33,401 nucleotides of DNA from a virus, in the IMG/VR virus record IMGVR_UViG_3300008517_000182, positions 1 through 33,401 of that record; one strand, given 5' to 3'. The translations under genes were made by a program, and so were the position numbers. Below, in pieces: positions 9,858 through 33,401 of the stretch; the first letter of the stretch is position 1; each line of letters starts with the position of its first letter. The notes beneath the pieces were generated by a model that did no database searches, was not told the origin of the DNA, and saw nothing but the letters and a program-made list of their open reading frames with translations.

Positions 9858-12002
9858 TTAGTACACTAATCTACTATGCTTAACAATGCCATCTTTGATG
9901 ACTATTCCGTTATCATCGAATACTTCAATTTCATCATCAGCATCTTCATCACCTTTCTGCACAGTCTTTGGTTCTTTACTCTCTACATCTGCTTTAGAAA
10001 GAATTTCTATCTTTTTCTTTTGTGCATCAATCTGGTCATCTCTTGCCTTGATTGCCATTTTCATCTCATCCATTTCAGATTCCTCTTTCTTTTTCTCAAA
10101 CAGATTGGAAAATTGCTCACCGATTGACTTTGTTAGTTCATCTTTAAATACATCAAAGTCTTCCTTTGTAACAAATTGTGGATTATCTGCCTTCTCTTCG
10201 GTCGGTTCATCTTCAGCAGGTTTCTCATCTTTAGTTTCTGTTTCAGATTTATCTTCTTTCTCTTCTGGGTCTTCTTGCTTTACTTCAGTTATCTTTGATA
10301 AAGCAGCTTCGATATTGAAGATAGCTCTCTCCATATTCTCAATGCGTTCTTCTACAGATAATTCAACAGTATCATCATCAGTCTTTCCCTCAGTTTCAGA
10401 AGGTTCAGTATCTTCTTCTTTAACTTCAGTTTTAATTTTCTTTTTCATTGTATCATTATTTATATCACAATCTTTACATACATCAGATAAATTGTTAGCA
10501 TCAAATTTAGATTTAGAAATTACAACAAATCCTGACATCTCATTAACTGGAAATTGGCAAATTGAAACTTCGAATATATTAATATCGTTCAATACATCTT
10601 TGCAATCTTCTCCATGAATGTTACATACTCTTTCTGGTTCACTCAAAATCTCACAACCTATTGAAAAACCATTTAGTTCTCCATTTAAAATTGATTGCCA
10701 TAAGTTATCAGCCGTCTTAATATCTTTACGAATTTCTGCAATTATATAAAGTCCTTTATCATCTACACGGGTTTTTAAATTACCGTATGAAGGAATTATT
10801 CTTCCCACTTGAATGTTTTTATGAGTTAACATCAAATTAGCATATGAAGGATCAGATAACAATGATTCAATTCCTTTTTTCAATGCATCTGTTGTAATTA
10901 GTTGTTCTTGAGAATCTATTACAGCAACACTATTACCAGTAATGAAGTGCTTACCATTTCTTCTAGCAACAAAAAAGGAGTTTGGAACTGTAACACACCA
11001 TACATCTCCTTGATATTTTTCTATAATTCTATTATGTGCACAAACATCCTTTCTATCTGTAATATATGCGTCATAATCCCCTCCCTTCTGTTTAGATTCC
11101 ATATTGATGTTAAACTTCTTACCTATCTTTAATGCAATTTCTTGTACCTGACTGATTAAATCATAATGCTCTTCATGATATGATAGTATTAATCTTTTAT
11201 TTCTATTTGGTCTCTTATCATATCCGTGTCCACCATCTCCCTTCATCAATGTATCAAATATAATCCCCAACTGTCTCTTACTAGAGTTTAATATTTTTCT
11301 AGTGAATCTTTTATTAGGAATTAATTGCCTAATTTTCTCTCCATCATCACTATGGATTAAGAAACAATGAGTGTCCTTATGATTTTCTTTCTTATTTTGA
11401 TAAATATTATGTGAAAAAGAGATACCAATTCTTTTAAGAAGTGCATCTATTTCATCATAATATTCTGTTATATTGATTCTGATATCTCTTCTATCAACTC
11501 TAAAATGCCCTTCTGTGATAATCCATGATAATAACCGTAACATATCATCAGATATATCAATTTCATCATTATCATAATTGCCAGTTGTTGGTATTTTATC
11601 ACTCCCAGCAATTTGATATGAAAGTTTGACTCTATCATCACATCTATATCCTCTTACAAACCATCTATGATTCAATGTAGTTATTGTGTCTATAGAAGCA
11701 GATTTAATATGTAATACGTCATCATCGATTTTATAATTCCACTTGCTAAGAAAATTCTGATACTCTAATTTATTGCTTTCTGGATTCCATGTTAATACCA
11801 TGTCAGTTGATTTAATAGTATCATGATTTTTCCATCCATTGTCAGTAAGAATATCAGTGTCCGCAGAAACACAAGCATATCCTGCAATTATCCTATCCCC
11901 ATCTGCTTTCTCAACTATCTTGACATTTCCAAACAATTTAAATGGAATTGTTCTAGTATCAATTCTAGACTCAGCCATCAAGGAGAGTTCTTTTATATTC
12001 AC
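9858..12002 (-). CDS. Prohead protease (XkdF-like) with scaffold-like tail and intein
   Basis: A 714-residue precursor starting at GTG 12002, whose first bases overlap the previous stop (GTGA). Residues 1-43 and 358-about 500 form the protease: IIAGYA joins to SVAVIDSQEQLITTDAL, the usual opening strand; His394 in MLTHKN and Ser447 in NGFSIGCE fit the catalytic His and Ser of the HK97/U35 group. Residues about 520-690 are acidic, Lys/Glu-rich and partly coiled coil (VEERIENMERAIFNIEAALSK), like a fused scaffolding domain that the protease would later digest. Residues 44-357 are an intein that must be removed to restore the protease. It should mature the procapsid. Confidence 0.85.
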   Translation of the reverse strand: MNIKELSLMAESRIDTRTIPFKLFGNVKIVEKADGDRIIAGYACVSADTDILTDNGWKNHDTIKSTDMVLTWNPESNKLEYQNFLSKWNYKIDDDVLHIKSASIDTITTLNHRWFVRGYRCDDRVKLSYQIAGSDKIPTTGNYDNDEIDISDDMLRLLSWIITEGHFRVDRRDIRINITEYYDEIDALLKRIGISFSHNIYQNKKENHKDTHCFLIHSDDGEKIRQLIPNKRFTRKILNSSKRQLGIIFDTLMKGDGGHGYDKRPNRNKRLILSYHEEHYDLISQVQEIALKIGKKFNINMESKQKGGDYDAYITDRKDVCAHNRIIEKYQGDVWCVTVPNSFFVARRNGKHFITGNSVAVIDSQEQLITTDALKKGIESLLSDPSYANLMLTHKNIQVGRIIPSYGNLKTRVDDKGLYIIAEIRKDIKTADNLWQSILNGELNGFSIGCEILSEPERVCNIHGEDCKDVLNDINIFEVSICQFPVNEMSGFVVISKSKFDANNLSDVCKDCDINNDTMKKKIKTEVKEEDTEPSETEGKTDDDTVELSVEERIENMERAIFNIEAALSKITEVKQEDPEEKEDKSETETKDEKPAEDEPTEEKADNPQFVTKEDFDVFKDELTKSIGEQFSNLFEKKKEESEMDEMKMAIKARDDQIDAQKKKIEILSKADVESKEPKTVQKGDEDADDEIEVFDDNGIVIKDGIVKHSRLVY
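10932..11873 (-). mobile_element. Intein with LAGLIDADG endonuclease in the prohead protease
   Basis: A 314-residue intein, residues 44-357 of the precursor. Block A is CVSADTDILTDNGW with Cys1; block B has TTLNHRWFVRG; block F reads VWCVTVPNSFF; block G is FITGN followed by Ser+1. Two LAGLIDADG-type motifs (LLSWIITEGH and FDTLMKGDGG) show a homing endonuclease domain. Trp at B:12, Cys at F:4 and Thr at G:5 match the WCT triplet of the phage-linked class 3 inteins, although Cys1 is also present. The insertion site is the conserved GYA.V strand at the start of the protease fold. Confidence 0.9.
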
Positions 12003-16129: not shown

Positions 16130-16447
16130 CTAATACTTTTGTTGTGGAATCACATGCCAATGAGCATGGTCGGGAATTTTGTGTCTCTTCATTCGAAGTC
16201 TAACAGTAGAGCCAAATAATTTCCTGCATCGATATAAGATTCTTCCCCATGCTTCTCTAGTGATTTCAGTTACATGGTCAGAATATACTATCATAGGAAC
16301 TTTGCAAGTCATACAATCAACAATTGCAAATTCAGCATCTGGAACTTCTTCTAGAGTTTCTGGATAATATAACTTGGTCTTAACTTCTCCATGAGTAAAG
16401 ATACGACATAGAGGACAACTTACGACATGGAGTGACTCATCCTTCAT
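16130..16447 (-). CDS. Zinc-ribbon protein with HIT-like HxHxH motif
   Basis: A 105-residue protein with CPLC (11-14) and CMTC (45-48), which can bind one zinc, then SDHVTEITREAWGRI and a C-terminal PDHAHWHVIPQQ in which His94, His96 and His98 make an HxHxH motif. HIT-superfamily proteins (nucleotidyl hydrolases and transferases) place this motif just after a helix and use the middle His as nucleophile; here there is helix-like sequence before it and short strands around it. Likely a compact HIT-related protein; a nucleotide-related role is possible but not shown. Its ATG follows the previous stop directly (TAGATG). Confidence 0.55.
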   Translation of the reverse strand: MKDESLHVVSCPLCRIFTHGEVKTKLYYPETLEEVPDAEFAIVDCMTCKVPMIVYSDHVTEITREAWGRILYRCRKLFGSTVRLRMKRHKIPDHAHWHVIPQQKY

Positions 16448-16603: not shown

Positions 16604-17490
16604 TGATTTACTCTCATTGAATTTATTTCTTCAAAATATTGTGGACGTGTTTCTATTTTTAAATATTTATGTTCAATCTTTTTATGGCATGAATTACATA
16701 AAGTTATAAGATTACCTATAGAATTATCCTTACTGATTCTGTACGGAATTATATGATGTATATGTAACTTTTCATTTGATGAACAGCATAAACATATTTT
16801 ATCTCTTCTCAATATTAAATCCTTTTGTTTAAACCAACCTCGCCCATAATAATGACTGTATCCACCAACATAATATGGATGCTTTTCACCAACAAGATTT
16901 TCCTTATACCATTTATTATAACAATCTCTCCCACAGAAATTATTTCCATTATTTATTAAAGAATTTGGTCTATAAAATTCTTCTTTACACCAATCACACT
17001 CAATAAACTTTCCTTTTGTACTATTTTCATAATATTTATGATTATAAAATTCTGATTTGTTTTCTCTCATATATGAATAATAGCAATCACCACTACAAAA
17101 ATTATGCTCACTTATCTGATAAGGATATTTCTTAATTTCAATTCCACAATGATTACAATTCAATTTAATTATTTTTTCTGATTTATATCCTTTAATGCCA
17201 AATCTCTTTCTTAGTCTACAAATTGTATAACTTGATATATTATATTCTTTGGATAGTATCGTATCAAAATTTGTTCCTAAGACAGAAATTAATTCAGATG
17301 GATAATCTTCTAATCTACCCTTCCCAGCCATAAAACTTCTGTGACTAGGTATTCCCAACTTTCTTCTTTTATATAATGCTGCATCTTTAGAAATTCCAAA
17401 TTCCTTAGCAACATCTTTATCTTCATATTTTCCTAAACTATCTATTAGTTCCTTAGTATAATTGTATCTCACTATTTTCTTAGATATCAT
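16591..17490 (-). CDS. Large HNH homing endonuclease with zinc fingers
   Basis: A 299-residue protein. Two helix-turn-helix-like segments at the N-terminus (EDKDVAKEFGISKDAALYKR and DTILSKEYNISSYTICRLR) probably bind DNA. Two zinc fingers follow (CNHCG...CSGDC and CDWCKEEF...CGRDC). The HNH nuclease is at the end: CLCCSS, LHIHHIIPYRI, NLITLCNSCHKKI. The last part is close to the small HNH gene 5502-5747. Its ATG overlaps the stop of the protease-like gene (TAATG). A free-standing homing endonuclease inserted between head genes is the simplest reading. Confidence 0.85.
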   Translation of the reverse strand: MISKKIVRYNYTKELIDSLGKYEDKDVAKEFGISKDAALYKRRKLGIPSHRSFMAGKGRLEDYPSELISVLGTNFDTILSKEYNISSYTICRLRKRFGIKGYKSEKIIKLNCNHCGIEIKKYPYQISEHNFCSGDCYYSYMRENKSEFYNHKYYENSTKGKFIECDWCKEEFYRPNSLINNGNNFCGRDCYNKWYKENLVGEKHPYYVGGYSHYYGRGWFKQKDLILRRDKICLCCSSNEKLHIHHIIPYRISKDNSIGNLITLCNSCHKKIEHKYLKIETRPQYFEEINSMRVNQWLK

Positions 17491-18026
17491 TACTTCACCA
17501 TTGCCATAGAATCTGCTGGATTACAAACCACAGCCAAACCTACTAGAACTATATCAGTTGCATGGATTTCTCCATCAATATACTTGTCCTTAGTAAGAAT
17601 TTCTACACTCAAGCCATTCACATATCCAGCATCGATAAGTATACGCACATCATTACTTGCGTGTGTAAGACAATGAAGATATGCATCTCCCTTTAATGTA
17701 TCATCCTCAAAGTATATATTTGGAACATATCCAATCCTGCTAAGAACTTTATCTGGTTCATGGTCAGTATTCCAGAATATCCTATCATCTTCTAATGTAA
17801 AATATTCTTCCTTCTTACAGATATTATTTGGTATCTTGCTTAATTCATTAGCACTATAATTTATTGGACTCCTTGAGATGCTATCAGAAAAAATTCCTGC
17901 ATGAAGCATTTCCACTCCATTATATCTACGTCCATCTCCTTTAGCAATTATCTTCTTGTCATACTTGAATGGGACTAATAACCTTCTTAATGTCGCTTCT
18001 TTCTTTTTACTCATATTTCCCCACAT
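17490..18026 (-). CDS. Prohead-protease-like protein (U35/HK97 type)
   Basis: A 178-residue protein right after the portal. The centre reads FWNTDHEPDKVLSRIGYVPN, with His89 as candidate catalytic His, and then DAYLHCLTHASNDVRILIDA followed by GYVNGLSVEILTK, with Ser140 as candidate nucleophile. It ends ATDIVLVGLAVVCNPAD, the characteristic final strand of HK97-type prohead proteases (i...vALV..PA). An ATG at 18014 is an alternative start. A second, different protease with a scaffold-like tail is at 9858-12002, so this virus encodes two members of the superfamily. Either both mature the capsid, or one is a structural relative. Confidence 0.7.
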   Translation of the reverse strand: MWGNMSKKKEATLRRLLVPFKYDKKIIAKGDGRRYNGVEMLHAGIFSDSISRSPINYSANELSKIPNNICKKEEYFTLEDDRIFWNTDHEPDKVLSRIGYVPNIYFEDDTLKGDAYLHCLTHASNDVRILIDAGYVNGLSVEILTKDKYIDGEIHATDIVLVGLAVVCNPADSMAMVK

Positions 18027-18029
18027 ATA

Positions 18030-20366
18030 TTAATCAGCTGTGACATCCACTGGAGAATTAATTTCCTCACCACCAACACTTCCAGTTATTAATTCATCCC
18101 CACCTTCGACATTTTCTAGGTTAAAGAAACTTCTTACTTCATTAATTGTTATTGGCTTCTTTCCTTCTGGGAATCCTCTCAATAGATTACCTAACCATTT
18201 TGCCATTCCTTCTTCATCAGCACTTGTTACACTTTTAAACTTAATACTCACTTCATTTTCTTTAAATCCATTATTAATCAGATTTGGATTGAAAAGTTCC
18301 AACCTTATCTGATTCTCAATCTTATGCTGGAATGATCTAATCATTCTCTCATGAAGTATCTCCCGTACTCTCGCACTAGCTTCTGTTGAATTACCTGTAA
18401 TGATACACTTGCCATCTAATCTAGTTAATATTAATCCATTATCAACTGTTACGCAATATACATTTCCGTCATAATGTTCCTTTGTTAATATAGACTTATG
18501 TCCCTTTATGTTCGTAATGCGAACTTCTGGTGTCATCTGTCCTTCATTTCTAGTTACTGCATATTCAGGCCAATTACATTTACCAGTTACCTTCCCATGA
18601 ATTACTACATCCCTTCCTACTCTTGAATCTCTATAATATATAGAACTCCCATATCCCATTTTTATTAAGATTTCCTGTACATCATCAGCAAGTCTTTTTG
18701 ATGTTGTGGAATAATTATTATAACTACCATCACCCAGCATCAAAGCATCATATAATATCCTAAGTTGTTTTGGACATAGTTCTTTCAAATCTTCTGGTAT
18801 AAACTTATTTGGAGCGTACTTACCAAAATGTCTTAAATAATCTGCTAATTGTTTTGAGAATATTCTTGCTCTATCCTCATTATAAAATACTTCAAATGGT
18901 AAATTTTCCATGCATTTCCACATTTTTTCTTGACTCTCACCAAAACTCTGTCTGATAGTGACGGAATATGAATTCCCCTCATCAAATGTAGTCCATCCTT
19001 CAGATAAATAATATCCCATAAATTCAAGCCACAAATCCATTGGAATATATTTTGGTCCTTCAGTTTTGAATTTTGATTTCCCACCAGTCCATCTATTCCC
19101 GACATAATAATCAACAGGTGGCAATATAAAATAATCTTTTTCTATGCCACTCCACTTCATACCACCAACCATCATTTCAAAACTATTTGGCAAATCTTTA
19201 GCTATATCAATCTCAAAATCTTTCTTTCTATACTTTCTGTGGTATATTCTATGGTCAGATGTACATTTAAGATTAAATGAATGTCCCTTGAAATTATATA
19301 TTTCTTCATTAATAGGACGAATCCAGTTTTTCTTATTCTCTTGAAATTCTAATTCATTAGTTTCTGCATTTAATGTGATGATTTTATCTCCAACCTTCAC
19401 TTCTGGAATCTTTACAAATCCCTTATTCTTTACAAATAATTCTGTATCTGGATGAAGGGGTCCTTGACCTAAACCTAATGCCTCGGGCATTGCTAATAAT
19501 CCTATTAATACTTGAGTAAGAAACATATCAGAATATCTCTCTACCCCAGTAACTCCTTGAGCATCTATAGTCCCCATTTTAATAACCCCAGGAATTATAT
19601 ATTCATCTTGAGAACTCACATCCTCCAAATCAGTCTTAATCCTATCAAACACAGGTTTTGGTGGAATCTCTTCTGGAGTTCCCACTGTTACAACATATTT
19701 AGGAGATCCATGTCTCATTATTGCTTTAAATAAAGAAATATCAACTTTTACCTTTCTATCTATTGCTTCCTTTGATGGTTCTATAATTGAAAGACCATAT
19801 TGACTACTTGGATTACGAAAGAACTTAAAGTGAATCATCTCATCTGGCATTAATTTCGTCTTTCTTATTACTCCACCAATCTTTTGTTGATAAGATAGAG
19901 TCCTATTGAAATCATCAATGTTAATAATAACTGTTGTTGGATCAACTATCCTTAATTTTGCTATATCCCCACTAGTGTCTTTTTGAATCTCTATAAATCC
20001 ATCACCATATATTAATGTATCTGTAACAGCATCAAGTAAAACTTCCTCTAGATTTACCTTCCTTACAAAGTCTCTAATTAATTGTTGTGCATTTTCATTA
20101 TCAGAATTTATCTGGTGTCCAACCATGACTGTATCCCAAGTGGTTGTGTTTATAGCAGCAAATACAGCTCCATCACCAGAATACCAATTCCAATAAGTTT
20201 CTAATGCCTTCTTATCTCTCCTATATTTGCTAATTCCCTGCAATTGAAATGCAGAAGTTCCAATAACAAATTTAGGAGTGCCAAATTCATCTAGCCACTT
20301 TGTCTCTTTAGGTGAAAGTATCTTTAACTTTCTCAAACTATCACCAACTGAATCTTTCCAAGCCAT
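18030..20366 (-). CDS. Portal protein with intein
   Basis: A 778-residue precursor; without the intein it is 421 residues, normal for a portal of the HK97/SPP1 type. N-extein: WNWYSGDGAVFAAINTTTWD, then the conserved DAVTDTLIYGDGFIEIQKD, LRIVDPTTVIIN, EMIHFKFFRNPSSQYGLSIIEP, and RHGSPKYVVTVGTP. C-extein: STEASARVREILHERMIRSF followed by a C-terminal domain. The portal forms a dodecameric ring at one vertex through which DNA is packaged and released. The intein interrupts the GLGQG/STEAS segment, a conserved part of the family. It lies 10 bases after the Alba gene, and the protease-like gene follows. Confidence 0.85.
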   Translation of the reverse strand: MAWKDSVGDSLRKLKILSPKETKWLDEFGTPKFVIGTSAFQLQGISKYRRDKKALETYWNWYSGDGAVFAAINTTTWDTVMVGHQINSDNENAQQLIRDFVRKVNLEEVLLDAVTDTLIYGDGFIEIQKDTSGDIAKLRIVDPTTVIINIDDFNRTLSYQQKIGGVIRKTKLMPDEMIHFKFFRNPSSQYGLSIIEPSKEAIDRKVKVDISLFKAIMRHGSPKYVVTVGTPEEIPPKPVFDRIKTDLEDVSSQDEYIIPGVIKMGTIDAQGVTGVERYSDMFLTQVLIGLLAMPEALGLGQGPLHPDTELFVKNKGFVKIPEVKVGDKIITLNAETNELEFQENKKNWIRPINEEIYNFKGHSFNLKCTSDHRIYHRKYRKKDFEIDIAKDLPNSFEMMVGGMKWSGIEKDYFILPPVDYYVGNRWTGGKSKFKTEGPKYIPMDLWLEFMGYYLSEGWTTFDEGNSYSVTIRQSFGESQEKMWKCMENLPFEVFYNEDRARIFSKQLADYLRHFGKYAPNKFIPEDLKELCPKQLRILYDALMLGDGSYNNYSTTSKRLADDVQEILIKMGYGSSIYYRDSRVGRDVVIHGKVTGKCNWPEYAVTRNEGQMTPEVRITNIKGHKSILTKEHYDGNVYCVTVDNGLILTRLDGKCIITGNSTEASARVREILHERMIRSFQHKIENQIRLELFNPNLINNGFKENEVSIKFKSVTSADEEGMAKWLGNLLRGFPEGKKPITINEVRSFFNLENVEGGDELITGSVGGEEINSPVDVTAD
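18390..19460 (-). mobile_element. Intein with LAGLIDADG endonuclease in the portal, starting with proline
   Basis: A 357-residue intein, residues 303-659 of the precursor. By alignment of the DT of block A (PLHPDTELFVKNKG), residue 1 is Pro, coded CCC, not Cys, Ser or Thr. Block B is CTSDHRIYHRK, block F is VYCVTVDNGL, block G is IITGN followed by Ser+1. The endonuclease motifs are MGYYLSEGWT and YDALMLGDGS. Cys at F:4 and Thr at G:5 agree with class 3 inteins, which can start with Pro, but position B:12 is Ile instead of the expected Trp. Confidence 0.85.
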
Positions 20367-20376
20367 TTAATCTATC

Positions 20377-20664
20377 CTATTTCTTATCATTCTTCTCTTT
20401 CTTAAGTCCAGATAATTCAATATCAATAGTAGTAACCCATCTTTCTCTTTCATCTTCTGGACTTTTAAACTTCTCACTATCCACAGTGATATTATATTTT
20501 GGATTCTCAAGATAATCTCTAATAAGAATTGCGAGTACATCTAATGCGGTCTTTGCATTCTTGCCACGAGCCATTATCCTTATCTTATCCTCTTTACCTA
20601 AGCCAAAGAAACATGCAGATATATAATTCTTAATATCCTTCTGACCAATATAAATCGTCTCCAT
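20377..20664 (-). CDS. Alba-family chromatin protein
   Basis: A 95-residue protein starting METIYIGQKDIKNYISACFF at ATG 20664, chosen because GGAGGTGA lies 8 bases upstream; the frame extends upstream into the end of TerL without a site. It follows the Alba pattern: strand plus YIG.K...NYI, then KIRIMARGKNAKTALDVLAI, a loop VDSEKFKSPEDERERWV and a last strand VTTIDIELSG. Alba dimers bind DNA or RNA in most archaea. The position equal to Sulfolobus Lys16 is Gln8, Lys17 is Lys9. The gene is in the packaging operon between TerL and portal, so the product may coat viral DNA or be packaged. Confidence 0.85.
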   Translation of the reverse strand: METIYIGQKDIKNYISACFFGLGKEDKIRIMARGKNAKTALDVLAILIRDYLENPKYNITVDSEKFKSPEDERERWVTTIDIELSGLKKEKNDKK

Positions 20665-20683
20665 AATTTTGTTCACCTCCTTC

Positions 20684-22243
20684 CTATACCTTATAAAATT
20701 GAAATCTATTTCCAACAGATTTAACATTATCAGTTTTTGTAGCACATCCTTTCGTCATTTGTGCCACTTCTTCCCAATTTATTGTAGGTCCTTCATCTTC
20801 AAATTCTTGAGATGCAATCACAGCAAATGAAAGTGCATCAAATGAATCATCTGTAGCACCTCTCGGAAATGAAAGAAGCTCATCGATTAATGCTGAAAAC
20901 TTCTCATCTGAACTAAGATATATCCTTCCTGTTTCAAATAGAACAGAAAGTCTTTGGATTCTTGACATTTTATCATTAACAATGGATGATTTTATTGGAA
21001 GTATAGGAAGTGTGGACATATCCATATATTGGTCTACAATTATTTTACCCTGTCCTGCTTGCTCCACACCTATCTTACTTGGATTCCAATCATTATCTCT
21101 TTGCCTAATCAATTCAAATTGCTCAAACATTGATGCTTGCTTAGTTCGAACTCCATCAAGTACATATACCAATCCATCTTTAATCGCTACTACAATAATT
21201 GTAAAGTAATCACTGTCTTCACCCTTAGAAGCCAAATCAACTCCCATAAATGTTTGATAAGGACGTACAGGAGTTTTGTAATTAGAAAGTGCAGCTTGTA
21301 TCCAATCATATTTAATTGGTGCGTCTACATCAGAAATATATTCATTCTGATATTGCATCATAAATGCAACATTACCATCAGCCCTTCTTATTCTTGCAAG
21401 TTCGGTGTATGGAACAAACTCTTTCCATAATACATTTGGTTTTTTATCATCTGGAAGTTTATTTATAAAATCACTTATAATTGGTATATGTTCCCCTTCC
21501 TCTAGTGCATTCCAATCTAATTCAGTTACGAATGTATAAAGTTCTTCAGATTCATATAACATTGCTTGATATTTATTAAATTTATATCCTGGCTTCTTAC
21601 TGGCATACTTATAGATATCTGATTCATGCCACTTAGTTCCAATAATAATAACTTTCTTATAAGAACTGTTTGGTATGAACATTTGCATAATTTCACTATC
21701 TAGTTGTTTCTCTAATGACCTTCTGCGATATTCAGTTCTTGAATTCTCTTTATCTGTGATATCATCAAGAATAATTATATCAAAGTGCCCACCAACAATG
21801 CCACCAGTAACACCAACAACCTTGAGAGTTGGATTATCTATGTCTTTTGCACCTTTAACCATTAATTTCTCTGATTTCCATAGTATGTTGCTTTTTTGAT
21901 TACCAAATGTATTTATTAACCTGTCATTAGTTTCGAGATTCGATTGTATAAATCTCATCATGTCATCTGCTCGTGTTTGATTGATTGTCACTACAAGTAT
22001 CTTTATGTTTGAATTTTTAACTATGTTCCATATAATATATGCACCAACTAACAATGACTTGCCGTGCCCCCTTGGGGCGAGCAACAAATTAAATCTATTG
22101 CTCTCAAATGATTTAATCCATTCCTCATGAAATGGTTCACACTTTAGTCCAACAACTTCTGTTACGAATGCTGGAAAGTTATCTGAATATTTCACTCTGT
22201 CTTTTATAGACTGAATCTTTTCCTCATAAGAAGTATTTGTCAT
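20684..22243 (-). CDS. terL: Terminase large subunit
   Basis: A 519-residue packaging motor. ATPase: Walker A APRGHGKS at 56-63, Walker B IIILDD at 156-161, coupling motif GTKWHESD at 202-209. Nuclease: Asp336 in FMGVDLASKGEDSDYF, Glu394 in IGVEQAGQGK, and Asp466/Asp469 in TDDSFDALSFAV, the three acidic metal-binding positions of the RNase H-like fold. The protein cuts concatemeric DNA and pumps it through the portal. It has no intein, unlike many relatives. It is followed closely by the Alba and portal genes and preceded by two small membrane-protein genes and a probable small subunit. Confidence 0.95.
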   Translation of the reverse strand: MTNTSYEEKIQSIKDRVKYSDNFPAFVTEVVGLKCEPFHEEWIKSFESNRFNLLLAPRGHGKSLLVGAYIIWNIVKNSNIKILVVTINQTRADDMMRFIQSNLETNDRLINTFGNQKSNILWKSEKLMVKGAKDIDNPTLKVVGVTGGIVGGHFDIIILDDITDKENSRTEYRRRSLEKQLDSEIMQMFIPNSSYKKVIIIGTKWHESDIYKYASKKPGYKFNKYQAMLYESEELYTFVTELDWNALEEGEHIPIISDFINKLPDDKKPNVLWKEFVPYTELARIRRADGNVAFMMQYQNEYISDVDAPIKYDWIQAALSNYKTPVRPYQTFMGVDLASKGEDSDYFTIIVVAIKDGLVYVLDGVRTKQASMFEQFELIRQRDNDWNPSKIGVEQAGQGKIIVDQYMDMSTLPILPIKSSIVNDKMSRIQRLSVLFETGRIYLSSDEKFSALIDELLSFPRGATDDSFDALSFAVIASQEFEDEGPTINWEEVAQMTKGCATKTDNVKSVGNRFQFYKV

Positions 22244-22700: not shown

Positions 22701-22940
22701 CTAAACTTCTACTTCTTCTGTATCGTTAAAATGCTTCCAAGCATTTGTTGCTGCATGCAATAATCCAACAATGAATGCAACTAATCCTGCTTGCTCTGGT
22801 GGGAATGTCTCTGTTTCTAGGAAGTTAGTTGAATATCCAAGTATTATTGGAATTAGAACTAAGAATAATCCTGTCCAGAATTTCTTTAGTACAATACCCC
22901 AATCAAACGATGATACTTCTATTGTTTTTTTCTTAACCAT
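22701..22940 (-). CDS. Small two-helix membrane protein, holin candidate
   Basis: A 79-residue protein with an N-terminal basic end (MVKKKT), two hydrophobic segments (GLFLVLIPIILGY and AGLVAFIVGLLHAATNAW) joined by TNFLETETFPPEQ, and an acidic C-terminus DTEEVEV. AAGGAGGATATG precedes it. The layout suits a phage holin of the two-helix class, with the N- and C-termini on the same side. It is separated from the next gene (22329-22538) by about 160 bases without a clear gene. No endolysin is visible nearby, so the call stays tentative. Confidence 0.6.
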   Translation of the reverse strand: MVKKKTIEVSSFDWGIVLKKFWTGLFLVLIPIILGYSTNFLETETFPPEQAGLVAFIVGLLHAATNAWKHFNDTEEVEV

Positions 22941-22976: not shown

Positions 22977-23552
22977 TTATTTATTCTCAAGTAACTCATC
23001 TAACAATTCATCTACTTTCTTCTTGCAATTATCACATAATTCTTTCTTTAATTTAATAAGTTGGTCTGCCCAATTATTAAGTAAAATTATTATCTTCTGC
23101 TCTTTCTTAAGATTCACATCTCCTATGTTTTTCATTTGTCCAAATGTGCTATTATGAAGTGATTCCCATCCTCTTCTTTCTTCTGCTAATCCTTTAAATG
23201 CAGTAGTAAGAGCCTTAGATAAATCATTAACATCTCCATTGTCTCTAGCTGTATCAGTCATTTCTTCAGCGATATCCATAAACTTGCTTGTTCTTTTGAT
23301 AATTTTCCTTAATTCCTTTCTGAATTCATTGTCTAGTTCTACAATAGGGTTCTCACCATCATCTATCATCTGCTCAACAATATCTCTTCCATAAGAATCT
23401 AGTCCTCTTTTGATAGCCATATGAGAATAGCCACCATCTTCTGGATATTTCTTGTTGAATATGTTAGATATTTCAATCCAACCATGTCCATCATCTCGAA
23501 GCCTCTTTGCTTCTTGTTCTCTTCCGTGTTCTTTAATTTTACTAATTTTCAT
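22977..23552 (-). CDS. Probable terminase small subunit
   Basis: A 191-residue, mainly helical protein. The first 60 residues resemble a winged or simple helix-turn-helix (GREQEAKRLRDDGHGWIEIS, then YSHMAIKRGLDSYGRDI), followed by long charged helices (FRKELRKIIKRTSKFMDIAE, LSKALTTAFKGLAEERRGW) and a Cys-containing end CDNCKKKVDELLDELLENK. DNA-binding N-terminus, oligomerising helices and a position upstream of TerL fit the small terminase subunit that recognises the packaging site. Sequence alone does not prove it. AAGTGAAATAA precedes the ATG. Confidence 0.6.
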   Translation of the reverse strand: MKISKIKEHGREQEAKRLRDDGHGWIEISNIFNKKYPEDGGYSHMAIKRGLDSYGRDIVEQMIDDGENPIVELDNEFRKELRKIIKRTSKFMDIAEEMTDTARDNGDVNDLSKALTTAFKGLAEERRGWESLHNSTFGQMKNIGDVNLKKEQKIIILLNNWADQLIKLKKELCDNCKKKVDELLDELLENK

Positions 23553-30156: not shown

Positions 30157-30186
30157 GTGCCGTGATTGGCAGGAAGTGAAAAAGAA

Positions 30187-30984
30187 ATGAATGAAGAAGA
30201 AATAAAAGAACAGGCAGATGATTCAACACCAGAAAAGATTGAATATATAAACTTCGAGCATCCAAGTGGATTATTTAAAAATATATTCAAGACTTTAAGT
30301 GTTGTGAATGGCGAAGCAAAGATATTCTTTACTAACAATGAGATAAAAACAACTCTTGTAGACCCAGTACATGTAATGATGGCAACAATTAAAATACCAA
30401 AAAGTGCAATAGAAGAATATCAAGTAAATGAAGATATATCTCTAGGATTTGACTTGGATAAATTGAATGGTATTTTCAAAGGTAGCAATAAAAATGATAG
30501 GTTTAAATTCTTATATGATTCAAATAAGGATATAAGCAAAGCATTTATAAACATAGGAATATTTGACCATAAATACACTTTGATTGACAAAGACCAATTA
30601 GCAGAGCCAAGAACACCAACATTAGGCTTGCCAGTGATTATCAAACTTAATACAAAAATACTACTTGACTTTTTAGTAAAAGCAGATAAAGTATCAAACT
30701 ATATTGAAATAATTGCTACAAAGGATGACTTAACCTTCAATGCAACAGGTGATAGCGATGAAGTATCAATAACATTAAATAGAGAGCAGATGGCATTATA
30801 TCAATGTGATGACACATATAGAAGTCCATATTCAGTTGATTATCTTCTATCTATTGTTAAACCACTTAAGACATTATTCAGTGAGATAGAATTAAATATG
30901 GCAAATGATAACCCTTTAAGAATTGTTGGTGATAATGGATATACAGTAGAAGTTTTACTTGCACCAAGAATAGAGAGTGAATAA
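30187..30984 (+). CDS. pcn: PCNA sliding clamp
   Basis: A 265-residue protein from ATG 30187 (MNEEEIKEQADDSTPEKIEY); a TTG at 30166 would add 7 residues but may lie before the transcript start. The first 25 residues are an acidic addition. Then comes PCNA: GLFKNIFKTLSVVNGEAKIFF, TTLVDPVHVMMATIKIPKSA (the DPxHV signature at 59-63), GFDLDKLNGIFKG, a second domain starting in GLPVIIKLNTKILLDFLVKAD, and the C-terminal EVLLAPRIE typical of archaeal and eukaryal PCNA. Trimers encircle DNA and tether polymerase and other factors. It heads the rightward operon and indicates virus-directed replication in an archaeal host. Confidence 0.9.
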   Translation: MNEEEIKEQADDSTPEKIEYINFEHPSGLFKNIFKTLSVVNGEAKIFFTNNEIKTTLVDPVHVMMATIKIPKSAIEEYQVNEDISLGFDLDKLNGIFKGSNKNDRFKFLYDSNKDISKAFINIGIFDHKYTLIDKDQLAEPRTPTLGLPVIIKLNTKILLDFLVKADKVSNYIEIIATKDDLTFNATGDSDEVSITLNREQMALYQCDDTYRSPYSVDYLLSIVKPLKTLFSEIELNMANDNPLRIVGDNGYTVEVLLAPRIESE

Positions 30985-32872: not shown

Positions 32873-33401
32873 ATGTGTCAATTCTTTAGTTGTATAATAG
32901 ACAAAAAAGGACATGTGTATTGGCATGCTGAAATAGATGCACATGAAGAATTAATTGAGAAATATAAGTTAGATGAAATCAATGATGATAGCAGAAAATG
33001 GGTGAGGATAGAAGTCACACCTATAGATGGTGATATTTTTTATCATAACATTAAAAACTGGAAAATCAAGATAGATGAGCATATAATTCCAGAATGGTAT
33101 GAAAGACAGCAAACCACATTATATGAAACGAATATATACAATGCATTAAAAGAATGTTTTAAATCTTGTTTCATTATAAACAAAGTTGGAATTAAACTTT
33201 CTGATGGGATTTGGTTCATAAAAGATTCGGAGATAACAAAATTAGAAAGAAAAGCAATCATTCGAATATTAGGAGGGAAATCCACCGTAAATGAGATGTG
33301 TGACAGTAGCACCGTAAAGAAGATGTGGGACAGTAGCACCGTAAATGAGATGTGTGACAGTAGCACCGTAAATGAGATGTGTGACAGTAGCACCGTAAAT
33401 G
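32873..33401 (+). CDS. Protein with C-terminal 9-residue repeats, 3' end missing
   Basis: Starts MCQFFSCIIDKKGHVYWHAE at ATG 32873, with AAGGAGG 9 bases upstream, and runs off the right edge. The first 135 residues form a domain seen in several phages (MC.FFS....KG..Y....DAH.ELI.KY.L, then WVRIEVTP, then a Trp-containing middle YERQQTTLYETN). From residue 138 it changes to tandem 9-residue repeats STVNEMCDS. I recall related repeat tails (units ending in SS.V) in many phage proteins. The repeats probably form a regular beta coil. Function unknown. Confidence 0.7.
   Translation, partial: MCQFFSCIIDKKGHVYWHAEIDAHEELIEKYKLDEINDDSRKWVRIEVTPIDGDIFYHNIKNWKIKIDEHIIPEWYERQQTTLYETNIYNALKECFKSCFIINKVGIKLSDGIWFIKDSEITKLERKAIIRILGGKSTVNEMCDSSTVKKMWDSSTVNEMCDSSTVNEMCDSSTVN
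33284..33401 (+). repeat. 27-base tandem repeat
   Basis: Four full units of 27 bases start at 33284, 33311, 33338 and 33365, and a fifth is cut by the window edge at 33392. Units 1, 3 and 4 are the same (accgtaaatgagatgtgtga then cagtagc); unit 2 has aagaagatgtggg in the middle. In frame they encode STVNEMCDS, once STVKKMWDS. Confidence 0.9.

Follow-up and report, generated by a model that had tools for sequence, protein, structure and literature searches.

An Alba-family gene fixed between the terminase and portal genes in a clade of head-tailed viruses

The Alba gene and its neighbors

The DNA analyzed here, a viral record of 33,401 nucleotides to which we refer as the window, carries a small gene between those for the terminase large subunit (TerL) and the portal protein (Table 1). 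Its product has the sequence METIYIGQKDIKNYISACFFGLGKEDKIRIMARGKNAKTALDVLAILIRDYLENPKYNITVDSEKFKSPEDERERWVTTIDIELSGLKKEKNDKK. Reading 5' to 3' into the gene, a Shine-Dalgarno element, AAGGAGGT (read within GGAAGGAGGTGAACAAAATTATG), is followed by GAACAAAATT and then by the ATG; the start is separated from the TerL stop by 19 nt, and 10 nt lie between the end of the gene and the portal start. An earlier note, made from the letters alone, had placed an Alba gene with a strong ribosome site here, between TerL and portal. Both gene and ribosome site were borne out, on the minus strand, and the matches of the neighbors to phrog_38 and phrog_12 upheld the placement. Composition alone gives 95 open codons a probability of about 0.0015, and this, together with conservation of the frame and a dN/dS of 0.22, ruled out a chance open reading frame.

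Table 1. Positions of genes and other features in the window
Feature	Positions	Strand	Product	Remarks
Prohead protease (Peptidase_S78) gene	9858-12002	minus		intein-like interruption with LAGLIDADG_3 domain
Small conserved gene	16130-16447	minus	about 105 aa	downstream of portal and protease genes
Head maturation protease-like gene	17490-18026	minus		phrog_2753, E 1.2e-5; next after portal
Portal protein	18030-20366	minus	778 aa	phrog_12, E 2.6e-20; intein at residues about 303-659
Alba	20377-20664	minus	95 aa	ATG at 20664; stop (included) ends at 20377
Shine-Dalgarno element	20675-20682	minus		upstream of the Alba start
TerL	20684-22243	minus	519 aa	phrog_38, E 1.3e-83; Terminase_6C, E 6e-12
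Small putative membrane protein	22701-22940	minus		between candidate TerS and TerL; from reading of the frame
Candidate small terminase subunit (TerS)	22977-23552	minus		upstream of TerL; kept in relatives
PCNA	30166-30984	plus		above both Pfam cut-offs
Tandem array	33283-33401			27-bp unit, 4.4 copies, reaching the record end

When the window protein was searched against Alba family profiles, the check which the earlier note had proposed, Pfam PF01918 (Alba) was matched with a score of 28.1 bits relative to a gathering cut-off of 25. This model was also matched at E ≤ 0.001 by 40 of 41 aligned viral members, and its cut-off was exceeded in 43 of 49 viral records. Among solved archaeal Albas the best phmmer match of the window protein was M. 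jannaschii Alba 1nh9 (E = 6e-8); a profile built from 12 relatives gave a stronger match than this single-sequence search, to T. volcanium Alba at E 2e-12, and the profile-profile probability to archaeal Alba was 98%. NCBIfam Alba models were matched at E 9e-12 and 5e-9, both under their cut-offs, and the equivalog model TIGR00285, 'DNA-binding protein Alba', gave 36.1 bits relative to a cut-off of 88.25. As these NCBIfam scores fall far under the cut-offs, we consider the window protein a member of the Alba family and not an equivalog of cellular Alba. The AlphaFold2 model, made with 41 viral sequences (pLDDT 92.2), shows the secondary-structure order of Alba, β1-α1-β2-α2-β3-β4. Foldseek searches with it placed Alba structures at the top (A. 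fulgidus 1nfh_A, rmsd 1.0 Å, TM 0.83/0.92); among predicted viral proteins they gave no close match, only weak ones including a phage protein annotated as SpoVS. These results confirmed that the window protein belongs to the Alba-fold family.

The position of the gene does allow a different use of the fold. The lambda gpW gene also lies between the TerL and portal genes, and several viral Albas are acidic (L079, L080, L083, and L085, pI 4.9-5.6), as might be expected if the protein were a structural or chaperone component of the head, with nucleic-acid binding secondary or lost. However, no head-completion protein was among the fold matches listed for the window Alba, and the residues that contact nucleic acid are among the most conserved of the viral family (see below); we consider a structural head role the least probable of the explanations weighed here.

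Upstream of TerL lies a candidate TerS with short N-terminal helices, possibly a helix-turn-helix, followed by a long helical region; its AlphaFold2 model is all-helical (pLDDT 83). Of 43 records, 38 had a profile match to it upstream, and the remaining five end before that point. Family and fold searches with the candidate gave no match, and the name TerS is therefore a provisional one. The presence of this separate, conserved helical candidate, putative as its name is, disfavors the idea that Alba is itself the small terminase. Relatives, too, from reading of their frames, have small proteins like the putative membrane protein encoded between TerL and this candidate. A scan of the window for sigma-70-type promoters gave matches at chance level, with a bacterial model that is not informative for archaea.

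Several further features of the region were noted. The edges of the portal intein were set by comparison with relative L007, in which the site is uninterrupted (GLGEG-STEASA); the first intein residue in the window is apparently Pro (PLHPDTELF...), where Cys or Ser is expected, and in the L068 portal that site holds Ile. The TerL frames of L033, L034, and L037 are about 1000 nt longer than those of their relatives, consistent with TerL inteins. The module in the window has two protease-like genes, the phrog_2753-type after the portal gene and the Peptidase_S78 gene before the capsid gene. The gene for a protein of about 105 aa is kept in L003, L004, L005, L007-L009, L011, and L012; Pfam gave no family above cut-off for the product, which has CxxC near the N terminus and WGRxLYRCR as its core; at the C terminus the window copy has HAHWHVIP, which resembles a histidine-triad motif and is degenerate in many relatives.

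Conservation across the virus clade

Relatives were collected in two independent ways, via Alba and via TerL. The set recruited by TerL is a fair test of linkage because such recruitment does not select for Alba. In 48 of the best 50 TerL-recruited loci, which include near-copies, Alba lay directly downstream of TerL. Two of the 48, L092 and L093, have a canonical-type Alba after TerL, then a small membrane-like open reading frame, and then the portal gene; L094 and L095, one group among the best 50, run from TerL straight to portal with no Alba between. No Alba was found in the flanks of 30 more distant viral TerL loci or of five genomic TerL loci. Counted by distinct Albas, the order TerL-Alba-portal was present in the window and in all 43 of the other distinct clade records, and whole-record scans found one Alba per record, with no second copy elsewhere. 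A scan of viral contigs for canonical-type Albas gave two further contigs, with no recognized TerL or portal in the gene flank; as these Albas lie away from any recognized TerL, they set the packaging-linked group apart.

Purifying selection on the gene is strong. Pairwise dN/dS, taken only where dS was estimable (several saturated values were left out), ranged from 0.01 to 0.22, the highest being that between the window and its nearest relative. Alba also co-diverges with TerL and portal: Mantel correlations of distances were 0.69 for Alba-TerL, 0.63 for Alba-portal, and 0.79 for TerL-portal, and for the two pairs with Alba none of 2000 permutations gave a value as high. A tree that included six cellular Albas placed 40 viral Albas on one side of a branch with support 97/92; the L092 Alba grouped with the cellular Albas on a very long branch, a placement that may be wrong. 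The tree rests on 94 columns, too few to name the archaeal source lineage. Helix 2 and strand 3 are separated by an insertion of about 25-35 aa in the Albas of L052, L053, L054, and L085.

We concluded that Alba is a fixed core gene in the cassette candidate TerS-small membrane proteins-TerL-Alba-portal-protease of one virus clade. The proposal of a virus-encoded Alba inside a packaging operon thus stood, with the position kept across the clade. Adjacency and co-inheritance speak for membership in a late operon; they do not speak for contact with TerL or DNA.

The window has the features of Caudoviricetes, with matches to Phage_capsid families (HK97-type capsid), terminase, and portal. Its PCNA gene has counterparts among 49 relatives only in L093 and L095, and larger relatives encode a family-B DNA polymerase (PolB) and an ERCC4 nuclease. 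Among the source metagenomes of relatives, two belong to a study of Helarchaeota in Guaymas Basin sediment (PMC6478937). When 84,980 genomes were scanned with a TerL profile, the only matches were five distant bacterial TerLs, none accompanied by Alba, and no provirus was found. The clade members G009 (154,999 bp) and G045 (89,379 bp) have apparently large genomes, with genes resembling those for sugar-activation and radical-SAM enzymes beside replication genes. We conclude that the clade consists of uncultivated head-tailed viruses whose hosts are probably archaea.

Residues kept and lost in the viral Albas

Functional positions were taken from Sulfolobus Sis10b/Ssh10b (PMC7498313) and from a survey of Albas (PMC11621453) and are given in Sulfolobus Alba numbering; the alignment of viral with cellular Albas was ungapped or nearly so through them. 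K17, Y22, and R42 were each present in 40 of 40 clade members and G43 in 41 of 41, L092 included. The contact residue K16 was kept in only 3 of 40 members, the R44 position was basic in 7 of 40, and K40 was kept in 1 of 41; the window Alba has Q at the K16 position and K at the R44 position. The alignment agreed with the earlier note that Gln8 of the window Alba corresponds to Lys16 of Sulfolobus Alba. The note's further suggestion, that this Gln mimics acetylated Lys, did not survive: the column reads S14, G7, N7, P3, K3, A2, D2, Q1, T1 in the 40 clade members, and with Gln in a single member and the column not conserved, acetyl-lysine mimicry is unsupported and we rejected it. Little conservation of K16 is reported among Albas at large (PMC11621453), and its loss therefore leaves family membership intact.

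K17, Y22, R42, and G43, all invariant, have a part in RNA binding as well, and RNA could therefore be the ligand. The critical residue for chaperone activity on RNA and for a preference for single strands in Sulfolobus islandicus was reported to be K17, which in crystals makes weak contact with RNA and none with DNA (PMC7498313); Gly43 has been linked to RNA binding, and the Alba domain is thought to be RNA-binding in origin (PMC11621453). The viral protein might then act on late mRNAs, or on a packaging RNA, as a chaperone or as a regulator of translation, with its operon position reflecting co-expression only. We think this unlikely, although it is the foremost of the alternatives: Sis10b carrying M20E/L24E/L27E/F60E had almost no RNA strand exchange activity (PMC7498313), and the viral Albas are without that patch; moreover, a general RNA function leaves the strict linkage to TerL and portal unexplained.

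Oligomerization of Alba uses a hydrophobic dimer-dimer patch formed by M20, L24, L27, and F60 (PMC7498313). In the clade M20 was replaced in 40 of 40 members (S/K/A/P/G/D/E, mostly Ser), as were L24 (S/T/P/N/Y, mostly Ser or Thr) and F60 (Tyr in 32, His in 7, Asn in 1); L27 was Phe in 33 viral Albas. Net charge in the 40 members ranged from -4 to +5, relative to +8 for Sso10b and +5 for M. jannaschii Alba. To judge from these alignments, the clade Albas have kept the core nucleic-acid contact residues and lost the fibre-forming surface.

These changes bear on the idea, also raised in the earlier note, that the viral Alba serves as a chromatin protein, coating and compacting the genome of the virus and being packaged along with it. 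The Alba fold and the retained basic contact residues would suit such a coat, and there is a precedent in SSV1, whose virions contain Sso7d, a chromatin protein of the host (PMC9608457), albeit in a virus that is not head-tailed. However, the dimer-dimer patch is replaced in every one of the 40 members, K16, K40, and R44 are mostly lost, and the proteins are less basic, with low net charge and several acidic members, all of which disfavors chromatin-like compaction. Tailed-virus motors also push DNA through a narrow portal, and bound protein is expected to be stripped. We therefore regard a packaged coat as improbable. An Alba α/β core from which the oligomerization patch is gone also has the design of a chain terminator, and Alba1-Alba2 heterodimers occur in Sulfolobus; the viral protein might accordingly pair with host Alba and, late in infection, break up the fibres of the host. 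A gene with that function would not have to lie between TerL and portal in every member, however, and we place this explanation just after the packaged coat.

A possible role in packaging and comparison with known systems

The combination of kept contacts and a lost fibre surface, as read from the sequences, points to a specialized packaging-stage job and not to bulk coating of DNA, and the conservation of the position across the whole clade makes a packaging-stage role reasonable. The suggestion in the earlier note that Alba may mark DNA for the terminase is compatible with these observations. We propose that the viral Alba is co-produced with TerL and portal, that it would act as a discrete dimer and not as a fibre-forming coat, and that this dimer may bind viral nucleic acid where terminase loads, cuts, or docks onto the prohead. 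The loss of fibre formation would make sense because a cooperative coat would block the translocating motor. Counting against such a role, the sister group L094/L095 manages to package DNA with no Alba at this position. A non-fibre-forming, DNA-architectural cofactor of packaging at terminase/prohead docking is nevertheless the explanation we favor, tentatively and with somewhat less than even confidence; after it we rank RNA work, a packaged coat, interference with host Alba, and a structural head role, in that order. The broader statement, that an archaeal-type nucleoid protein was turned into an obligate, non-oligomerizing partner of the packaging motor, a chromatin-derived terminase cofactor, in a whole clade of tailed viruses, is one we hold more doubtfully still.

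The Alba family is already known; what appears new, as far as the literature searched goes, is that the gene holds a fixed place in the packaging cassette and that its product has lost the fibre-forming surface. That literature contained no virus-encoded Alba held between TerL and portal throughout a deep clade: a search of mostly open-access literature for Alba and viruses turned up no paper reporting Alba in head-tailed viruses of archaea, and the text of the main survey of archaeal Caudoviricetes makes no mention of Alba, chromatin, or PCNA. INPHARED held no match to the Albas of the window, of another clade member, or of M. jannaschii, and TerL matches there were all below 60% identity, about 25% among the matches listed. 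The host nucleoid protein IHF helps phage packaging; a chromatin-derived terminase cofactor, if our proposal is true, would be a packaging component undescribed in head-tailed viruses in the literature searched. The proposal makes testable how tailed viruses handle archaeal chromatin at packaging, and the clade offers a natural series of patch-less Albas useful for separating DNA-binding, RNA-chaperone, and oligomerization functions.

With archaeal Alba/Sac10b proteins (A. fulgidus 1nfh, M. jannaschii 1nh9, T. volcanium 4z9e) the viral Albas share the fold and K17, Y22, R42, and G43. They differ from cellular Albas in the replacement of P18 by D or E (36 of 41), in the newly conserved K38, R49, and R75, in a β3-β4 hairpin that is shorter in most members, and in the basic residues and M20/L24/F60 patch described above, and 40 of 41 lie on a branch separate from the cellular Albas compared. 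SpoVS, an Alba superfamily protein of bacteria and some phages, has an Alba-like fold, but its structural match is lower (TM about 0.57), with no sequence-family match, and it is not packaging-linked as far as tested. Sso7d is host-encoded, with a fold unrelated to that of Alba, and SSV1 is a spindle-shaped virus without terminase/portal packaging. What the two cases have in common is an archaeal nucleoid protein used by an archaeal virus (PMC9608457). For the role proposed here, a parallel may be drawn with IHF and HU at lambda-type terminases. Both are bacterial, host-encoded, and unrelated to Alba in fold, and IHF assists the lambda terminase at cos; by analogy, the viral Alba would be a small dimeric nucleoid protein that aids its terminase.
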